Origin: Bacteroidaceae bacterium
GTDB lineage: Bacteria; Bacteroidota; Bacteroidia; Bacteroidales; Bacteroidaceae
NCBI GenBank assembly: GCA_017507105.1
Contig: JAFWBM010000027.1
Span: 1 to 64,000, forward strand
DNA length: 64,000 nucleotides
Reading direction: 5' to 3'
The notes under the pieces are model-generated. The model ran no database searches and had not been told where the DNA came from. It was given only the letters and a program-made list of their open reading frames with translations. This document shows, piece by piece, positions 4,389 through 45,724 of this stretch (position 1 is the first letter of the stretch; every line of letters starts with the position of its first letter). Position numbers and translations under genes: made by a program.

Positions 4389-5501
4389 TTATTCCTGTGC
4401 TCCGAACTCCATAAGATAGGCCTTTATAAAACCATCTATCTTACCGTCCATCACTCCACCAACATCGGAAGTCTGGAATCCTGTACGATGATCCTTTACA
4501 CGACGGTCATCGAATACATAACTGCGTATCTGCGAACCCCACTCAATCTTCTTCTTTCCGGCTTCCACCTTCGACTGTTCCTCCATACGATGCTGCATCT
4601 CCTTGTTATAGAGTATAGAACGTAACTGACGCATGGCATTCTCCTTATTCTTGGGTTGGTCACGAGTCTCGGTATTTTCGATGAGAATCTCCTCTTCAGC
4701 ACCTGTATATGGGTCCTTATATTGATAACGCAGACGAACACCCGACTCCACCTTATTCACATTCTGACCACCTGCACCACCGCTTCGGAAGGTATCCCAT
4801 GACACACGGGCAGGCTCAATTACCACCTCTATGCTATCATCAACCAAAGGAGTCACAAATACCGAGCTGAAGGATGTCATACGCTTTCCCTGGGCATTGT
4901 ACGGACTTACACGTACAAGACGATGTACTCCATTCTCGCCCTTAAGATAGCCATAGGCATAGGGACCCTGCAATTCGAGTGTAACAGTCTTAATACCTGC
5001 GTCTTCGGCTTCCTGCAAGTTGGCAACAGCCACCTTGTAACCATTAGCTTCGGCCCAACGCATATACATACGCATGAGCATGCTTGCCCAATCCTGCGCC
5101 TCTGTACCTCCGGCTCCCGAATTTATCTTTAGCACACAATCCATCTCATCGGCCTCCTGACGCAACATATTCTTAAGTTCCAGCTCCTCAATAGCAGCAA
5201 TAGCACGTGCATAGGCATCGTCGACCTCGCTCTCTTCAACCATCTCTTCACGGAACAGTTCCATTGCAAGCTCAACCTCCTCGGTTCTGTTATTCACCTC
5301 TTTATACCCCTCAATCCAGCCTTGCAGAGCCTTTACTTTCTTCATTTGGGCCTCAGCAGCTTTAGCATCATCCCAAAAACCGGGAGCCTGCGTACGCAGC
5401 TGCTCCTCCTCTACCTGCATAATCTTTTCGTCAATAGAAAGATACTGCTTTAACGCAGCAGTTCTCTCTTTAATATCCTTCAGTTGGTCGGATGTTATCA
5501 T
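4389..5501 (-). CDS. prfB: Peptide chain release factor 2
   Basis: A 370-residue class I release factor. GGQ, which triggers peptidyl-tRNA hydrolysis, is at 244-246. The stop-codon recognition tripeptide reads SPY at 199-201 where Escherichia coli RF2 has SPF. The codons where the autoregulatory +1 frameshift usually sits (codons 21-25, Tyr-Leu-Ser-Ile-Asp) run straight through with no in-frame UGA, so this gene seems not to use the programmed frameshift. The promoter box lies in a repeat element at 5531-5625. CYTH follows four bases downstream. Confidence 0.95.
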   Translation of the reverse strand: MITSDQLKDIKERTAALKQYLSIDEKIMQVEEEQLRTQAPGFWDDAKAAEAQMKKVKALQGWIEGYKEVNNRTEEVELAMELFREEMVEESEVDDAYARAIAAIEELELKNMLRQEADEMDCVLKINSGAGGTEAQDWASMLMRMYMRWAEANGYKVAVANLQEAEDAGIKTVTLELQGPYAYGYLKGENGVHRLVRVSPYNAQGKRMTSFSSVFVTPLVDDSIEVVIEPARVSWDTFRSGGAGGQNVNKVESGVRLRYQYKDPYTGAEEEILIENTETRDQPKNKENAMRQLRSILYNKEMQHRMEEQSKVEAGKKKIEWGSQIRSYVFDDRRVKDHRTGFQTSDVGGVMDGKIDGFIKAYLMEFGAQE

Positions 5502-5530: not shown

Positions 5531-5625
5531 TGCAAAGATAGTTACAAACGAGCGAAAAATATAAAGCTTGCTTTGATATTTTTTACAGCGAGTGCAGTTT
5601 ATGTTAGAGGTTTACCTCAAAGATA
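5531..5625 (-). repeat. Promoter-bearing intergenic repeat, copy A
   Basis: A 95-base element matching 36341-36435 at 84 of 95 positions by hand alignment with no gaps. Both ends carry CAAAGATA in direct orientation; the left one, read on the minus strand as TATCTTTGC (5532-5540), is placed as the -7 box of prfB. A conserved CGCTCGTTTG block lies just upstream of that box, and the middle holds an imperfect inverted repeat around AAAGCTTGCTTT. Diverged inverted copies occur at 15622-15684 and 15706-15768. Confidence 0.75.
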
Positions 5626-8646: not shown

Positions 8647-9123
8647 TTACTTCATAAATTTAAGAGTCTCCTCGCCACCGTACTCAAAGCGTGTAACAGC
8701 CGACTCATAATCAAAGAGCTCCTCCTCTTTAAAGAATCTCTTTATCTCAATAAGAGCATTCTCTACCGAGTCTGAAGCATGAACAACATTCTGTTCACCA
8801 CTCATTGAGAAATCTCCACGAATTGTACCGGGAAGAGCCTTGCGAGAATTTGTCACACCAACCATAAGACGTACTGTCTCTACAGCCTCGGCACCCTCAA
8901 GACAACATGCCATCACGGGACCTGCCTGCATAGAAGCCTTAAGATAAGGATAAAAAGGACGTTCAACAAGATGAGCATAGTGCTCGGCTAAAATCTCGTC
9001 AGTAAGATACATCATCTTAAGACCAACAATACGCAAAGCTTTGCGTTCAAAACGTGTAATAATGTCGCCCATTATGCCTCTCTGAATTGCATTAGGCTTG
9101 ATAAGGATAAGTGTTCTTTCCAT
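8647..9123 (-). CDS. ndk: Nucleoside-diphosphate kinase
   Basis: A 158-residue protein with the family pattern: N-terminal ERTLILIKPNAIQRG, the GTIRGDFS block and the active-site histidine in NVVHASDS. It transfers the terminal phosphate between nucleoside triphosphates and diphosphates in the cytoplasm. The length is a few residues above the usual. Minus-strand -7 boxes lie upstream at 9188-9196 and 9232-9240, the second inside a nearly symmetrical inverted repeat. Confidence 0.93.
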   Translation of the reverse strand: MERTLILIKPNAIQRGIMGDIITRFERKALRIVGLKMMYLTDEILAEHYAHLVERPFYPYLKASMQAGPVMACCLEGAEAVETVRLMVGVTNSRKALPGTIRGDFSMSGEQNVVHASDSVENALIEIKRFFKEEELFDYESAVTRFEYGGEETLKFMK

Positions 9124-9187: not shown

Positions 9188-9196
9188 GCAAAGATA
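9188..9196 (-). promoter_or_regulatory. -7 promoter box (TATCTTTGC) of ndk
   Basis: Exact TAnnTTTGC on the minus strand, about 65 bases upstream of the ndk start. Confidence 0.55.
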
Positions 9197-9214
9197 ACCG
9201 ATTGTCAATCACTC

Positions 9215-9240
9215 TATCTTCGCGATTTATCGCAAAGATA
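9215..9240. promoter_or_regulatory. 12-2-12 inverted repeat built from two facing -7 boxes
   Basis: TATCTTCGCGAT and ATCGCAAAGATA are inverted copies with one mismatch around two T. Each arm is a -7-like box continued by GCGAT. The same architecture, perfect, lies at 15676-15701. Confidence 0.5.
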
Positions 9241-15529: not shown

Positions 15530-15621
15530 CTACAAAATAAAGGAATAGCGGCAAAAAAAACCTAAATTTTAATAATCTAGCAACTTTTAAACATATATTT
15601 TGCAGCATTTAAGGTAAAGCA

Positions 15622-15684
15622 CACTCGCTTTGAAAAATATCCGGGCAAGCTTTATATTTCTCGCTCGTTTCTTAGTATATTTGC
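15622..15684 (+). repeat. Promoter-bearing repeat, diverged copy C (inverted relative to A and B)
   Basis: Shares CACTCGCT, AAAAATATC, GCAAGCTTTATATTTCTCGC and GCTCGTTT with the reverse complement of copy A and ends in TATATTTGC at 15676-15684. It points toward NAD kinase. Confidence 0.6.
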
Positions 15685-15701
15685 GATAAATCGCAAATAT
15701 A
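15676..15701. promoter_or_regulatory. Perfect 12-2-12 inverted repeat of two facing -7 boxes
   Basis: TATATTTGCGAT and ATCGCAAATATA are exact inverted copies around AA. Each arm holds a full TATATTTGC box, one directed to NAD kinase and one to pdxJ, so the two start sites would fall within the repeat or just beyond it. Confidence 0.55.
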
Positions 15702-15705
15702 GTCT

Positions 15706-15768
15706 GCATTCGCTGCGAAATGCCAATATAAACTTTGCCAATCTCGCTCGTTTGTTTATTATATTTGC
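15706..15768 (+). repeat. Promoter-bearing repeat, degenerate copy D, with NAD kinase -7 box
   Basis: A weaker tandem copy sharing GCATTCGCTG and ATCTCGCTCGTTTG with copies A-C. It ends in TATATTTGC (15760-15768), which with TTTG at 15734-15737 is the best promoter for NAD kinase at 15815. Confidence 0.5.
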
Positions 15769-15814: not shown

Positions 15815-16687
15815 ATGAAATTTGCCATCTTCGGAAATACACATCAAACAAAAAAATGTGAAAACATTTCCAATTTGTTTGCGACAATAAAACGTCTGGG
15901 ACATAGCTATGCCATAGACCGTCCATTTATGGAGTTACTTTCCGATATTTGTCCCGAACACACCAAGAACATCCCCATCATAGAAGACAACAATTTCGAG
16001 GCCGACATTGTAATAAGCTACGGTGGCGACGGCACTCTACTGCGTACAGCCAGTCGTGTCGGTAGCAAAGGTTACCCTATTCTTGGAATAAACGCAGGTC
16101 GCCTGGGGTTTCTCACCACTATATCTAACAACAGATGCGAAGAGACTATAGAGAACATACACAACAACTGCTACTCTATAGAGGAACGTAGTCTTATAGA
16201 GGTGACAAGCGAAGGCAACAGACTCAAGAACTATCCATTTGCACTTAACGAAGTGGCAGTGATGAAACACGATAGTTCATCAATGATGACACTCAGAGCC
16301 ACGCTGAATGATAAGGACTGTATTACCTATCAGGCCGATGGTCTTATTGTAGCAACGCCTTCGGGCTCAACAGGATATTCACTGAGCGTTGGAGGCCCCA
16401 TCATATCACCCGACTCAAATGTAATAGTGCTTACACCCATCGCATCTCACAGCCTTGGAGCGCGACCTATAGTACTCGACAACAACACCCGGGTAAAGAT
16501 AGAGGTCAGTAGCCGCAGCCACAATTTTCTCATTGCTATAGACGGACGTAACGAAAGCTGCAGTGAAAACACCGTATTGAATATAAAGAAAGCATCACAC
16601 ACGTTGCGTCTTATACGATGCAACGGCAGTTCATTCATCAAGAATCTGCACGAAAAAATGATGTGGGGTGCCGATACAAGAGAATAA
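15815..16687 (+). CDS. nadK: NAD kinase
   Basis: A 290-residue protein with the diagnostic GGDGTLLRTA (about residues 69-78), NAGRLGFLT, a central NEVAV segment and the GSTGYSLSVGGP loop. It phosphorylates NAD to NADP. It is divergent from pdxJ, and the shared intergenic region carries two promoter-bearing repeat copies. The ATG start is 47 bases after the -7 box at 15760. Confidence 0.95.
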   Translation: MKFAIFGNTHQTKKCENISNLFATIKRLGHSYAIDRPFMELLSDICPEHTKNIPIIEDNNFEADIVISYGGDGTLLRTASRVGSKGYPILGINAGRLGFLTTISNNRCEETIENIHNNCYSIEERSLIEVTSEGNRLKNYPFALNEVAVMKHDSSSMMTLRATLNDKDCITYQADGLIVATPSGSTGYSLSVGGPIISPDSNVIVLTPIASHSLGARPIVLDNNTRVKIEVSSRSHNFLIAIDGRNESCSENTVLNIKKASHTLRLIRCNGSSFIKNLHEKMMWGADTRE

Positions 16688-36060: not shown

Positions 36061-36291
36061 CTATTTCTTGTTGTCGAGTTTCTCTCGCATGCGCTCGGCA
36101 TAACTCTTGCCTGCATTATTCTGAGGCATAAGAATCCAAAGAACAATGTACGCAACAAGACCAAATCCACCAAAAACAAGGCAGATTAATGCAATCAAGC
36201 GCAAAAGTCCGGTATTCCAACCAAAGTTCTCAGCAATACCGGCGCATACACCAGCAATCATCTTATTGCTGGAACGATATAATCTTCCCAT
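36061..36291 (-). CDS. PspC-domain membrane protein
   Basis: A 76-residue protein matching the stand-alone PspC domain: RLYRSSNKMIAGVCAGIAE with the conserved G-V-C-x-G-I-A, then one long membrane helix (LLRLIALICLVFGGFGLVAYIVLWILM) and a charged tail. PspC-type proteins act in envelope stress responses; this small form's role is unknown. Its promoter box is inside repeat copy B, 51 bases upstream. Confidence 0.85.
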   Translation of the reverse strand: MGRLYRSSNKMIAGVCAGIAENFGWNTGLLRLIALICLVFGGFGLVAYIVLWILMPQNNAGKSYAERMREKLDNKK

Positions 36292-36340: not shown

Positions 36341-36435
36341 TGCAAAGATAGGCACAAACGAGCAAGAAATATAAAGCTTGCTTTAATATTTTTTACAGCG
36401 AGTGCAGTATATGTTCAAAGTTTATTTCAAAGATA
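36341..36435 (-). repeat. Promoter-bearing intergenic repeat, copy B
   Basis: Same length and layout as 5531-5625, differing at 11 of 95 positions. GCAAAGATA at 36342-36350, read on the minus strand as TATCTTTGC, is the -7 box of the PspC gene. The rest of this 333-base gap (36292-36624) holds the Nif3 promoter and no gene. Confidence 0.75.
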
Positions 36436-43231: not shown

Positions 43232-45724
43232 TTAATTATTTTGTTCGCTATTGTTTATGTCATTATTCTCTTCTGTATCATCACGTGTAACCTTGCAGAC
43301 AGAACCGATACAATCGTTCTTCTTTCCAAGATTTATGATACGAACACCTTGTGTTGTACGTCCTTGTACCGGTATCTGGTTAACTGCTGTGCGAATTGTG
43401 ATACCCGACTTGTTGATTATCATAAGATCGTTACTATCGTTTACGTCCATCATGGCAACCAATGAGCCCGTCTTTTCGGATATACTCAATGTCTTGACTC
43501 CTTTACAGCCACGACCTACAGTGGGATAATCTTCAACGCGTGAACGTTTACCTATTCCCTGCTCCGAAAGTACGAGTAAGCTGTGTTCTGCATCATCCTT
43601 AGGCAATACAACCATACCTACAATCTCGTCATTCTCATCCAAAGCCATACCTTTGACTCCGGTAGCAGTACGTCCCATTGCACGCACCGAGGACTCGTTG
43701 AAACGAACCGCCTTTCCTCCTCGGTTAGCCAATATGATATCACTGTTACCATCTGTCAGTGCAACAGATATCACTCTGTCATCCTCGCGGATGGAGATTG
43801 CAATTATACCATTTGTACGTGGACGTGAATACTGCTCGAGACTGGTTTTCTTTATTATACCCTGTTTTGTACAGAATACAATGTTATGACTCTCTATGAA
43901 ATTCTTATCGGCCAATGTCTTGACACGTACAAATGCATTGACTGCATCATCGGGCTCTATATTGAGCATATTCTGTATTGCACGACCTTTTGAGTTCTTG
44001 TTACCCTCGGGTATTTCGTACACCTTCAACCAATAACATTTACCTCTTTGTGTAAAGAAGAGCATTGTATTGTGCATGGTCGCTGTATAAATATACTCTA
44101 TAAAATCGCTATCACGAGTATCACTTCCCTTAGAGCCAACACCACCACGATTCTGACTACGGTATTCATTCAATGGGGTACGCTTAATATATCCCAAATG
44201 CGATATTGTGATGACCATCTCATCGTCGGCATAGAAATCCTCGGGATTAAAGTCTTCAGAAGCACTATAGTCTATGCGACATTTACGTTCATCGCCATAC
44301 TTCTCCTTAACCTCAATGAGCTCGTCCTTCATTACTTGTTTACAAAGCTCCTCGTTTGTAAGTATCTCATTATAGTATGCAATCTTCTGTTGCAATTCTT
44401 CAAATTCGGCATGCAACTTCTCCTGATTGATACCGGTGAGCTGAGCAAGACGCATCTCAACAATGGCGTTTGCCTGAACCATAGAGAGCGAGAAACGCTC
44501 CATAAGGGCATTCTTTGCATCTGATGGCGATTTTGCAGCTTTTATAATATGTACAACCTCGTCTATATTGTCTGATGCAATAATCAATCCTTCAATTATG
44601 TGTGCACGCTCTTGTGCCTTGCGCAATTCGTACTTGGTACGACGTATCACAACCTCATGACGATGATCTACAAAGTTGGAGATACAATCTTTTAACGAGA
44701 GTAGACGTGGACGTCCATGAACCAATGCTATGCAGTTTACACTGAATGATGTCTGCAAAGCACTCATCTTATAGAGTTTGTTAAGTATTACATTGGCGTT
44801 AGCATCGCGTTTTACATCAATGACAATGCGCATACCCGACTGGTCCGACTCATCATTAATATTGGATATACCCTCAATTCTCTTCTCGTTTACCATTGAG
44901 GCAATATCCTTTATAAGTTCCTCTTTATTGACGTTATAAGGAATTGCTGTAACAATTATCTTGTCATGTAATGCACCCGATTCAATTTCGGCAACAGCAC
45001 GCATGACAACGCGACCACGACCTGTTTCATATGCATCACGTACACCATTCAAGCCGAAAATATCACATCCAGTGGGAAAATCGGGAGCTTTAACATACTC
45101 CATCAATCCATCAGTGTCTATGTCCGGATTATCAATATATGCAACACTTGCATCTATAACCTCACCTAGGTTGTGTGTAGGTATATTTGTAGCCATACCC
45201 ACCGCAATACCGGTTGAACCGTTTACCAAGAGGTTCGGGATTCTTGTAGGCAATACTGTTGGCTCTTCAAACTCATCGTTGTAGTTGGGTTTGAAGTCTA
45301 CAGTCTCTTTATATAGGTCTTCGGCCATTCCTTCACCTATCTTCTTGAGACGAGCCTCGGTATAACGCATGGCAGCAGGAGAGTCGCCATCAATAGAACC
45401 GAAGTTTCCTTGACCATCAATAAGCGGATAACGCATTACCCAATCCTGAGCCATACGCACTAAAGCGCCATATACAGACGAGTCACCATGTGGGTGATAC
45501 TTACCAAGTACATCACCGACTGTACGAGCCGATTTCTTATAGGGTTTGTCCGATGTATTTCCCAATTCCATCATACCGTATAGGATACGACGTTGTACTG
45601 GTTTTAATCCATCACGCACATCGGGCAAAGCACGAGCCACAATAACCGACATAGAGTAGTCGATATATGCGGTACGCATCTCTTCTTCAACATTGACCTT
45701 TATAATTCTGTCGTTGTCAATCAT
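43232..45724 (-). CDS. gyrA: DNA gyrase subunit A
   Basis: An 830-residue type II topoisomerase subunit. The catalytic tyrosine is Y121 in AAMRYTE. The quinolone-determining stretch reads HGDSSVYG, with serine at 82 (equivalent to S83 of Escherichia coli) and glycine at 86, consistent with an unmutated site at position 82. The C-terminal wrapping domain begins with a GyrA box ([10 protein letters not shown], variant of QRRGGKG), which distinguishes it from ParC. The C-terminus is a short acidic/asparagine tail. Confidence 0.95.

Follow-up and report, generated by a model that had tools for sequence, protein, structure and literature searches.

This study found that a 95-bp repeat before prfB and pspC in a draft genome of the Bacteroidaceae is a new mobile-promoter-type repeat. 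Our preferred reading, to which we give a probability of roughly 0.7, is that its copies are mobile, non-autonomous repeats whose insertion sites are the -7 boxes of sigma-ABfr-type promoters, and that the gene-side end of the inserted unit takes over as promoter. In Bacteroidetes, the described promoter consensus consists of TAnnTTTG at -7 and TTTG at about -33 (PMC7366714).

The window, that is, the whole stretch of 64,000 nucleotides analysed here, contains a single long direct repeat. An earlier note on this DNA had reported an ungapped alignment of 5531-5625 with 36341-36435, identical at 84 of 95 positions, and realignment gave the same result. A 38-base core pattern matched the window twice, against 0.00 matches expected from shuffled sequence. 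The CAAAGATA ends lie at 5533-5540 and 5618-5625 in the prfB copy and at 36343-36350 and 36428-36435 in the pspC copy. Read on the minus strand, the gene-side end is TATCTTTGC at both loci, about 31 bp from the start of prfB (ATG at 5501) and about 51 bp from that of pspC (36291). The upstream CGCTCGTTTG block, the central imperfect inverted repeat and the terminal direct repeats described in the note are all present. A covariance model (CM) of the repeat family also found an array ahead of nadK and, ahead of ndk, a shrunken copy in which hairpin 2 is deleted and both TATCTTTG boxes are kept. Another CM match, at 45119-45189, was weak (E=0.14), lay within apparent coding sequence and was taken as chance. 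An Rfam scan of the window at the gathering threshold returned two tRNAs only. The features are as follows.

4389..5501, minus strand: prfB (PCRF and RF-1 domains, Pfam), behind the proximal box
5533..5625, minus strand: complete unit before prfB (CM match of 106 bits), with its gene side at 5533 and its distal side at 5625
5533..5540, minus strand: gene-side (proximal) box TATCTTTG, the -7 box of prfB, as read from the sequence and from the single box in empty relatives
5555..5583, minus strand: hairpin 2, which is the central imperfect inverted repeat (covariation, fold)
5607..5618, minus strand: hairpin 1 (GAGGTTTACCTC on the plus strand), adjoining the distal box (covariation)
5618..5625, minus strand: distal box TATCTTTG, with GTTG just before it as in the native prfB promoter of the relatives
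8647..9123, minus strand: ndk (nucleoside diphosphate kinase, Pfam), behind the shrunken copy
9189..9240, minus strand: shrunken copy before ndk, consisting of box, hairpin 1, arm and box (CM, E=0.0004)
15610..15768, plus strand: two-unit array before nadK with TATATTTG boxes, the distal unit truncated (CM match at 15676-15767)
15815..16687, plus strand: nadK (NAD kinase, Pfam), behind the array
36061..36291, minus strand: pspC (Pfam), behind the proximal box
36343..36435, minus strand: complete unit before pspC, its distal junction probably an assembly mis-join

The repeat is not confined to the window. The note had suggested a search of the genome and its relatives for further copies, and this search revealed about 48 units, distributed over about 24 places of the same genome (a 2.1-Mb draft in 52 contigs), with up to 96% identity to the prfB unit; copies are under-counted, since several contigs end within arrays. 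The element consists of about 75 bp plus a box, and its copies, about 75-93 bp long, are non-coding and dispersed. Units occur singly or in head-to-tail arrays of up to 6 units with a unit length or period of 83-86 bp, and neighbouring units have a common 8-bp TAnnTTTG box at each joint. A CRISPR array was considered and rejected; here the long segment is the conserved part and the joints are the 8-bp boxes. All 44 genomes examined from the genus carry the repeat, with 2-43 scored matches each. In a family-wide sample, the model matched in 74 of 201 genomes and 16 of 30 genera, of which g1 and g30 were densely filled. Named records with the right-end motif come nearly all from uncultured Bacteroidaceae or Bacteroidales, the hosts being sheep, goat, deer, buffalo, yak and cattle (gut). 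The only match in viral contigs lay in coding-like sequence (L210) and was taken as chance.

Several variant forms were observed. At one promoter, the array has 5 units in G001 (L280) and 2 units in its sister species G033 (L346), the flanks being about 98% identical. Before dnaG, a palindromic remnant consists of half a unit followed by its inverted copy (L050, 375-431). Longer variant units occur on the minus strand of L128 (about 4920-5130) and L077 (about 400-610), where a hairpin module TTTGGGGCCGCAAACGGCACTCC...CGCGTTG stands in place of the GCACTCGCTG region. The recurrent 'CGCGTTG' distal ends were considered as the end of an autonomous element and rejected, being the second hairpin module of these longer units. 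In L105 (4072-4361), the core hairpin is repeated three times, boxless, between AACTTTCATCTTTCAACTTT-like stretches.

The units hold a fixed position and orientation relative to genes. In the genome of the window, a gene start lies close to the box end at every place with enough flank, with two exceptions: L035, on a contig without a clear frame, and the palindromic remnant in L050. The genes behind these units include prfB, pspC, nadK, cas9, xerD, rsmI, folP, dnaG and dtd; genes behind units were named by sequence, save prfB, nadK, ndk and pspC, which were confirmed by Pfam. About 28 bp separate one unit (L031, 1515-1603) from the cas9-like gene behind it, a type II gene identified by its sequence. 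Of 87 arrays from this and related genomes, 77 have a longest gene-side reading frame that points away from the box, and an ATG was found within 200 bp of the box in 67 of those 77, mostly 15-110 bp downstream of the proximal box. The remaining 10 arrays are mostly near ties or close to contig ends.

Comparison with empty sites indicates how the units reached these positions. The prfB promoter lacks the unit in all 29 relatives compared, each of which has a single -7-like box before the leader, reading GTTG[TATCTTCG]C in most relatives and having TATCTTTG or TAACTTTG as box in a few. The filled site in the window reads GTTG[TATCTTTG]-unit-[TATCTTTG]C, and its flanking gene pair is the same as in 26 relatives. 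The xerD promoter is filled in the same genome and in G001 and empty in nearly all other genomes; the G001 site reads AAATCGC[TATCTTTG]-unit-TTTC[TATCTTTG]CATCATT, and that of G033, with a downstream flank 98.8% identical to G001, reads AAATCGC[TATTTTTG]CATCATT. A second filled and empty sister pair, G042 and G039, is more divergent and shows a like pattern with both flanks aligned. The pspC promoter is filled in 3 of 30 genomes (that of the window, G025 and G010), and nadK is filled by this repeat family in the genome of the window and by a cousin family in G008. Because the target promoters already have one box in empty relatives, the unit appears to insert into the -7 box and to leave a box on each side, and the patchy filling across genomes indicates gain at pre-existing -7 boxes. 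The earlier note had held that one end of the repeat supplies the -7 box of the adjacent gene. The gene-side box is indeed there, but the target gene had a box before, which the unit splits or duplicates.

Conversely, the units could be ancestral to these promoters and have been lost in most relatives through recombination between the two boxes, since direct-repeat boxes would permit precise loss. However, the filled genes differ by species, most orthologous promoters are empty genus-wide, and units at different sites within a genome are up to 96% identical. Ancestral loss is thus very improbable, and the patchy distribution largely refutes it.

The locus at prfB is sound, given that the M20-peptidase gene adjoining prfB is kept there in 26 of 29 relatives. 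The pspC copy (36341-36435), in contrast, probably sits on an assembly mis-join. The divergent neighbour of pspC is a methyltransferase gene in 24 of 29 relatives; Nif3, its neighbour in the window, adjoins pspC in none of the 29. The first 16 bp of contig C28 are pspC leader, and a 4-unit array and then the methyltransferase gene follow (L039, 1-365). The halves of the window that flank 36341-36435 may therefore not be neighbours on the chromosome. Both copies are real, but the spacing of 31 kb given for them earlier is doubtful because of the probable mis-join.

The junctions carry further information on insertion. Of 101 single insertions, 84 have the same variable dinucleotide in both boxes, where 39 would be expected, and uncommon boxes, for instance TACATTTG and TAACTTTG, are among those that agree. 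Within a strict set, 17 of 85 sites also have the same three bases ahead of the box on either side, against about 2.4 expected; columns -3, -2 and -1 of this set gave p values of 0.007, 0.0002 and 0.0002, and no signal was found at -4 and -5. For a subset of sites, the pattern resembles a target-site duplication of roughly 10 bp. A simple target-site duplication cannot cover every case, since the three best filled/empty comparisons (prfB, G001/G033 at xerD, and G042/G039) show mismatches: the empty box is one base off the filled gene-side box, and the three pre-box bases are unmatched between the two sides. At prfB and L278, where these three bases differ, the empty box is one base off both filled boxes; at sites of this type, a box-unit-box segment may have replaced the box, or the copies may later have been converted by one another.

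The interior of the unit is structured. Across 29 diverse units, hairpins 1 and 2 keep 90.9% of their pairs, with 68 doubly changed (compensatory) cells against 21.4 +/- 3.8 in shuffled versions, and slid versions came nowhere near this number. Single units fold no more stably than shuffled sequence; the evidence for structure is thus covariation, not energy. The stem of hairpin 1 includes the distal box, and this hairpin keeps its pairing, not its sequence. The unit also has an internal arm that is complementary to the free base of the box. Among single or distal-edge copies, a C-type arm goes with a C-type gene-side box in 35 of 37 cases and an A-type arm with an A-type box in 24 of 24. Since the gene-side box lies outside the stem formed by the arm and the distal box, selection on the stem alone cannot explain this agreement. 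When the arm-box pairing was followed into the three bases beyond the box, no consistent signal appeared at array edges.

The arm could also serve as a guide in promoter invasion. The internal arm (CGAAGATA, CGAATATA or CGAAAATA) would then base-pair with its target: C-type arms would lead units to TATCTTTG promoters, A-type arms to TATATTTG promoters and T-type arms to the boxes of TATTTTTG promoters. The unit might do so as single-stranded DNA that enters an open complex at its melted -7 region. We regard such guided targeting as rather unlikely, and the agreement between arm and box would also fit box, arm and box travelling as one unit.

At the gene-side end, an almost invariant CTCGTTTGT stands upstream of the box. 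A TT at a spacing of N21 upstream of this box is nearly invariant (28/29 and 23/29); T/C/G/A, mostly T/C, and A/G come next. This TT(T/C)(G/A), about 21 bp upstream, could serve as the -33 element with an approximate match; because the TT lies inside hairpin 2, something else may account for its conservation. Among 88 arrays, the exact box is found at the proximal end in 75 and at the distal end in 52; only the proximal box is kept in 29 arrays and only the distal box in 6. Such a bias would be expected if the gene-side end were used as a promoter, and judged from these sequence patterns this end probably acts as one. The following course may be proposed. A short non-coding unit would insert into a TAnnTTTG -7 box and leave a copy of the box on each side; re-insertion at the box or unequal recombination would add further units, giving arrays with the 83-86 bp period; and the proximal box, together with the upstream end of the element (CTCGTTTGT, TT(T/C)(G/A)), would take over as promoter of the downstream gene. 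The distal box would keep the upstream half of the old promoter and be free to decay. Such a take-over would allow the element to persist in promoters, as the gene would not be silenced.

Hairpins with compensatory changes, fixed orientation close to gene starts and preservation of the gene side would also suit a structured regulatory element (an operator, attenuator or leader RNA) that selection keeps for the coordination of genes, its mobility being incidental. However, the genes behind the units are unrelated and vary by species, with prfB, pspC, nadK and xerD filled in few genomes. Moreover, since the expected start is downstream of the box, an mRNA from the proximal box would not contain the unit, and a protein operator, unlike hairpin 1, would be expected to keep its sequence. 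We therefore consider this explanation decidedly unlikely.

How the units move may be asked of their ends and their neighbours. No terminal inverted repeats were found: neither inner end (G-AGGTAAACC... or ...CTCGTTTGT) is an inverted copy of the other, and the box is a direct repeat at both ends in most copies. No recurrent transposase family appeared in the top clusters of 2043 reading frames within 2.5 kb of copies, and no autonomous relative with matching ends was found among reading frames at that distance. Two candidate enzymes, the RAYT/IS200 Y1 transposase (PF01797; 5 of 44 genomes) and the IS110 recombinase (PF01548; 7 of 44), are absent from the genome of the window and too rare to account for the spread.

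The absence of both enzymes from most genomes speaks for a spread by homologous or short-homology recombination (gene conversion, DNA uptake), in which box-unit-box replaces a single box and no transposase is involved. At L278/L336, both filled boxes differ from the empty target at the same base, as if they had arrived with the unit; the arm and the two boxes, distal and proximal, agree with one another as a single unit; and the array size of 5 versus 2 units between sister species would also be accounted for. Eight bases of homology are very short, however, and the excess of matches in the outer three bases is explained by duplication and not by replacement. Recombination as the route is possible but somewhat unlikely, and spread by transposition into the -7 box, suggested by the empty sites and the junctions, is the reading that we retain.

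With their many short, non-coding, dispersed copies, the units resemble MITEs, and with two covarying hairpins each is a palindromic unit as in REP/BIME. Like REP/BIME elements, they are small palindromic intergenic repeats in high copy number and in clusters (PMC3733652). Repeats of the REP/BIME type, moved by a REP-associated Y1 tyrosine transposase, would be short, intergenic, hairpin-forming and tandem, as these units are. In contrast to REPs, each unit has two hairpins, promoter boxes at both ends, a fixed promoter position and a fixed orientation to the gene, and the Y1 family is missing from 39 of the 44 genomes, all of which contain the repeat. CGTC-type REPs likewise have no dedicated transposase (PMC3733652). 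Movement of the present units by a Y1 enzyme is highly improbable.

The units share features with two further kinds of mobile DNA. IS200/IS605 elements have subterminal hairpins, lack inverted ends and use an internal guide that pairs with the target, which is not duplicated. Hairpins and the lack of inverted ends are found here too, and the arm complementing the box is an analogue of the guide; however, a box stands on both sides of the unit, and the enzyme family is missing from most genomes. Resistance genes in Bacteroides can receive a -7/-33 promoter from insertion sequences, which carry transposase genes and sit at varied upstream positions. As in that case, mobile DNA would give a TAnnTTTG promoter to the gene behind it; here, by contrast, the unit is tiny and splits an existing box.

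A search of the openly accessible literature on REP, MITE, mobile promoters and Bacteroidales intergenic repeats gave no like element, just BrickBuilt and general REP work. BrickBuilt of Porphyromonas gingivalis has a 23-bp repeat between a leader and a tail, with IS5-like terminal inverted repeats; it showed outward promoter activity in a reporter, and its authors suggest a role as 'putative mobile promoter' (PMC4596501). The present units are like BrickBuilt and MITE-like elements in being short, non-coding and intergenic, in occurring in Bacteroidales and in their tandem repetition (PMC4596501). They differ in lacking such ends, in their period of 83-86 bp and in inserting into the -7 box, whereas BrickBuilt has no fixed target.

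Cousin units of different sequence were found with the same CM in other genera of the Bacteroidaceae (G101, G105, G115, G218 and G060). Their period is mostly 73-91 bp, and their plan is box, small hairpin, complementary arm, larger hairpin, CTCG-type tail and box. The arm tracks the box, as in TACCTTTG with GAAGGTA, and a start codon is often 20-100 bp from the array. In G008, the nadK promoter (L253) holds a cousin family, GGCGGCTCGG...CACTCGCCTT, with the box-hairpin-arm plan; since nadK of the window is filled by its own family, one promoter has been hit by different families.

In sum, the earlier suggestion of a mobile or amplified promoter cassette is well supported by the copies and arrays, the empty sites with insertion at the -7 box, the fixed orientation and the better preserved gene-side end. 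Common control of the genes, also raised in the note, would be a further possibility. In ruminant-gut Bacteroidaceae, many unrelated genes now appear, from their sequences, to start behind one type of mobile unit. Promoter evolution is usually portrayed as a matter of single-base changes. In these genomes, a mobile unit appears to swap the upstream half of the core promoter in many housekeeping genes, repeatedly and genus-wide, with cousins elsewhere. This would be a natural large-scale promoter-swap experiment and a source of promoter copy-number variation between sister species, and it would cause breaks and mis-joins when genomes of a major gut group are assembled from metagenomes. Should the match between arm and box reflect guided targeting, these units would be an unrecognised kind of small mobile element.
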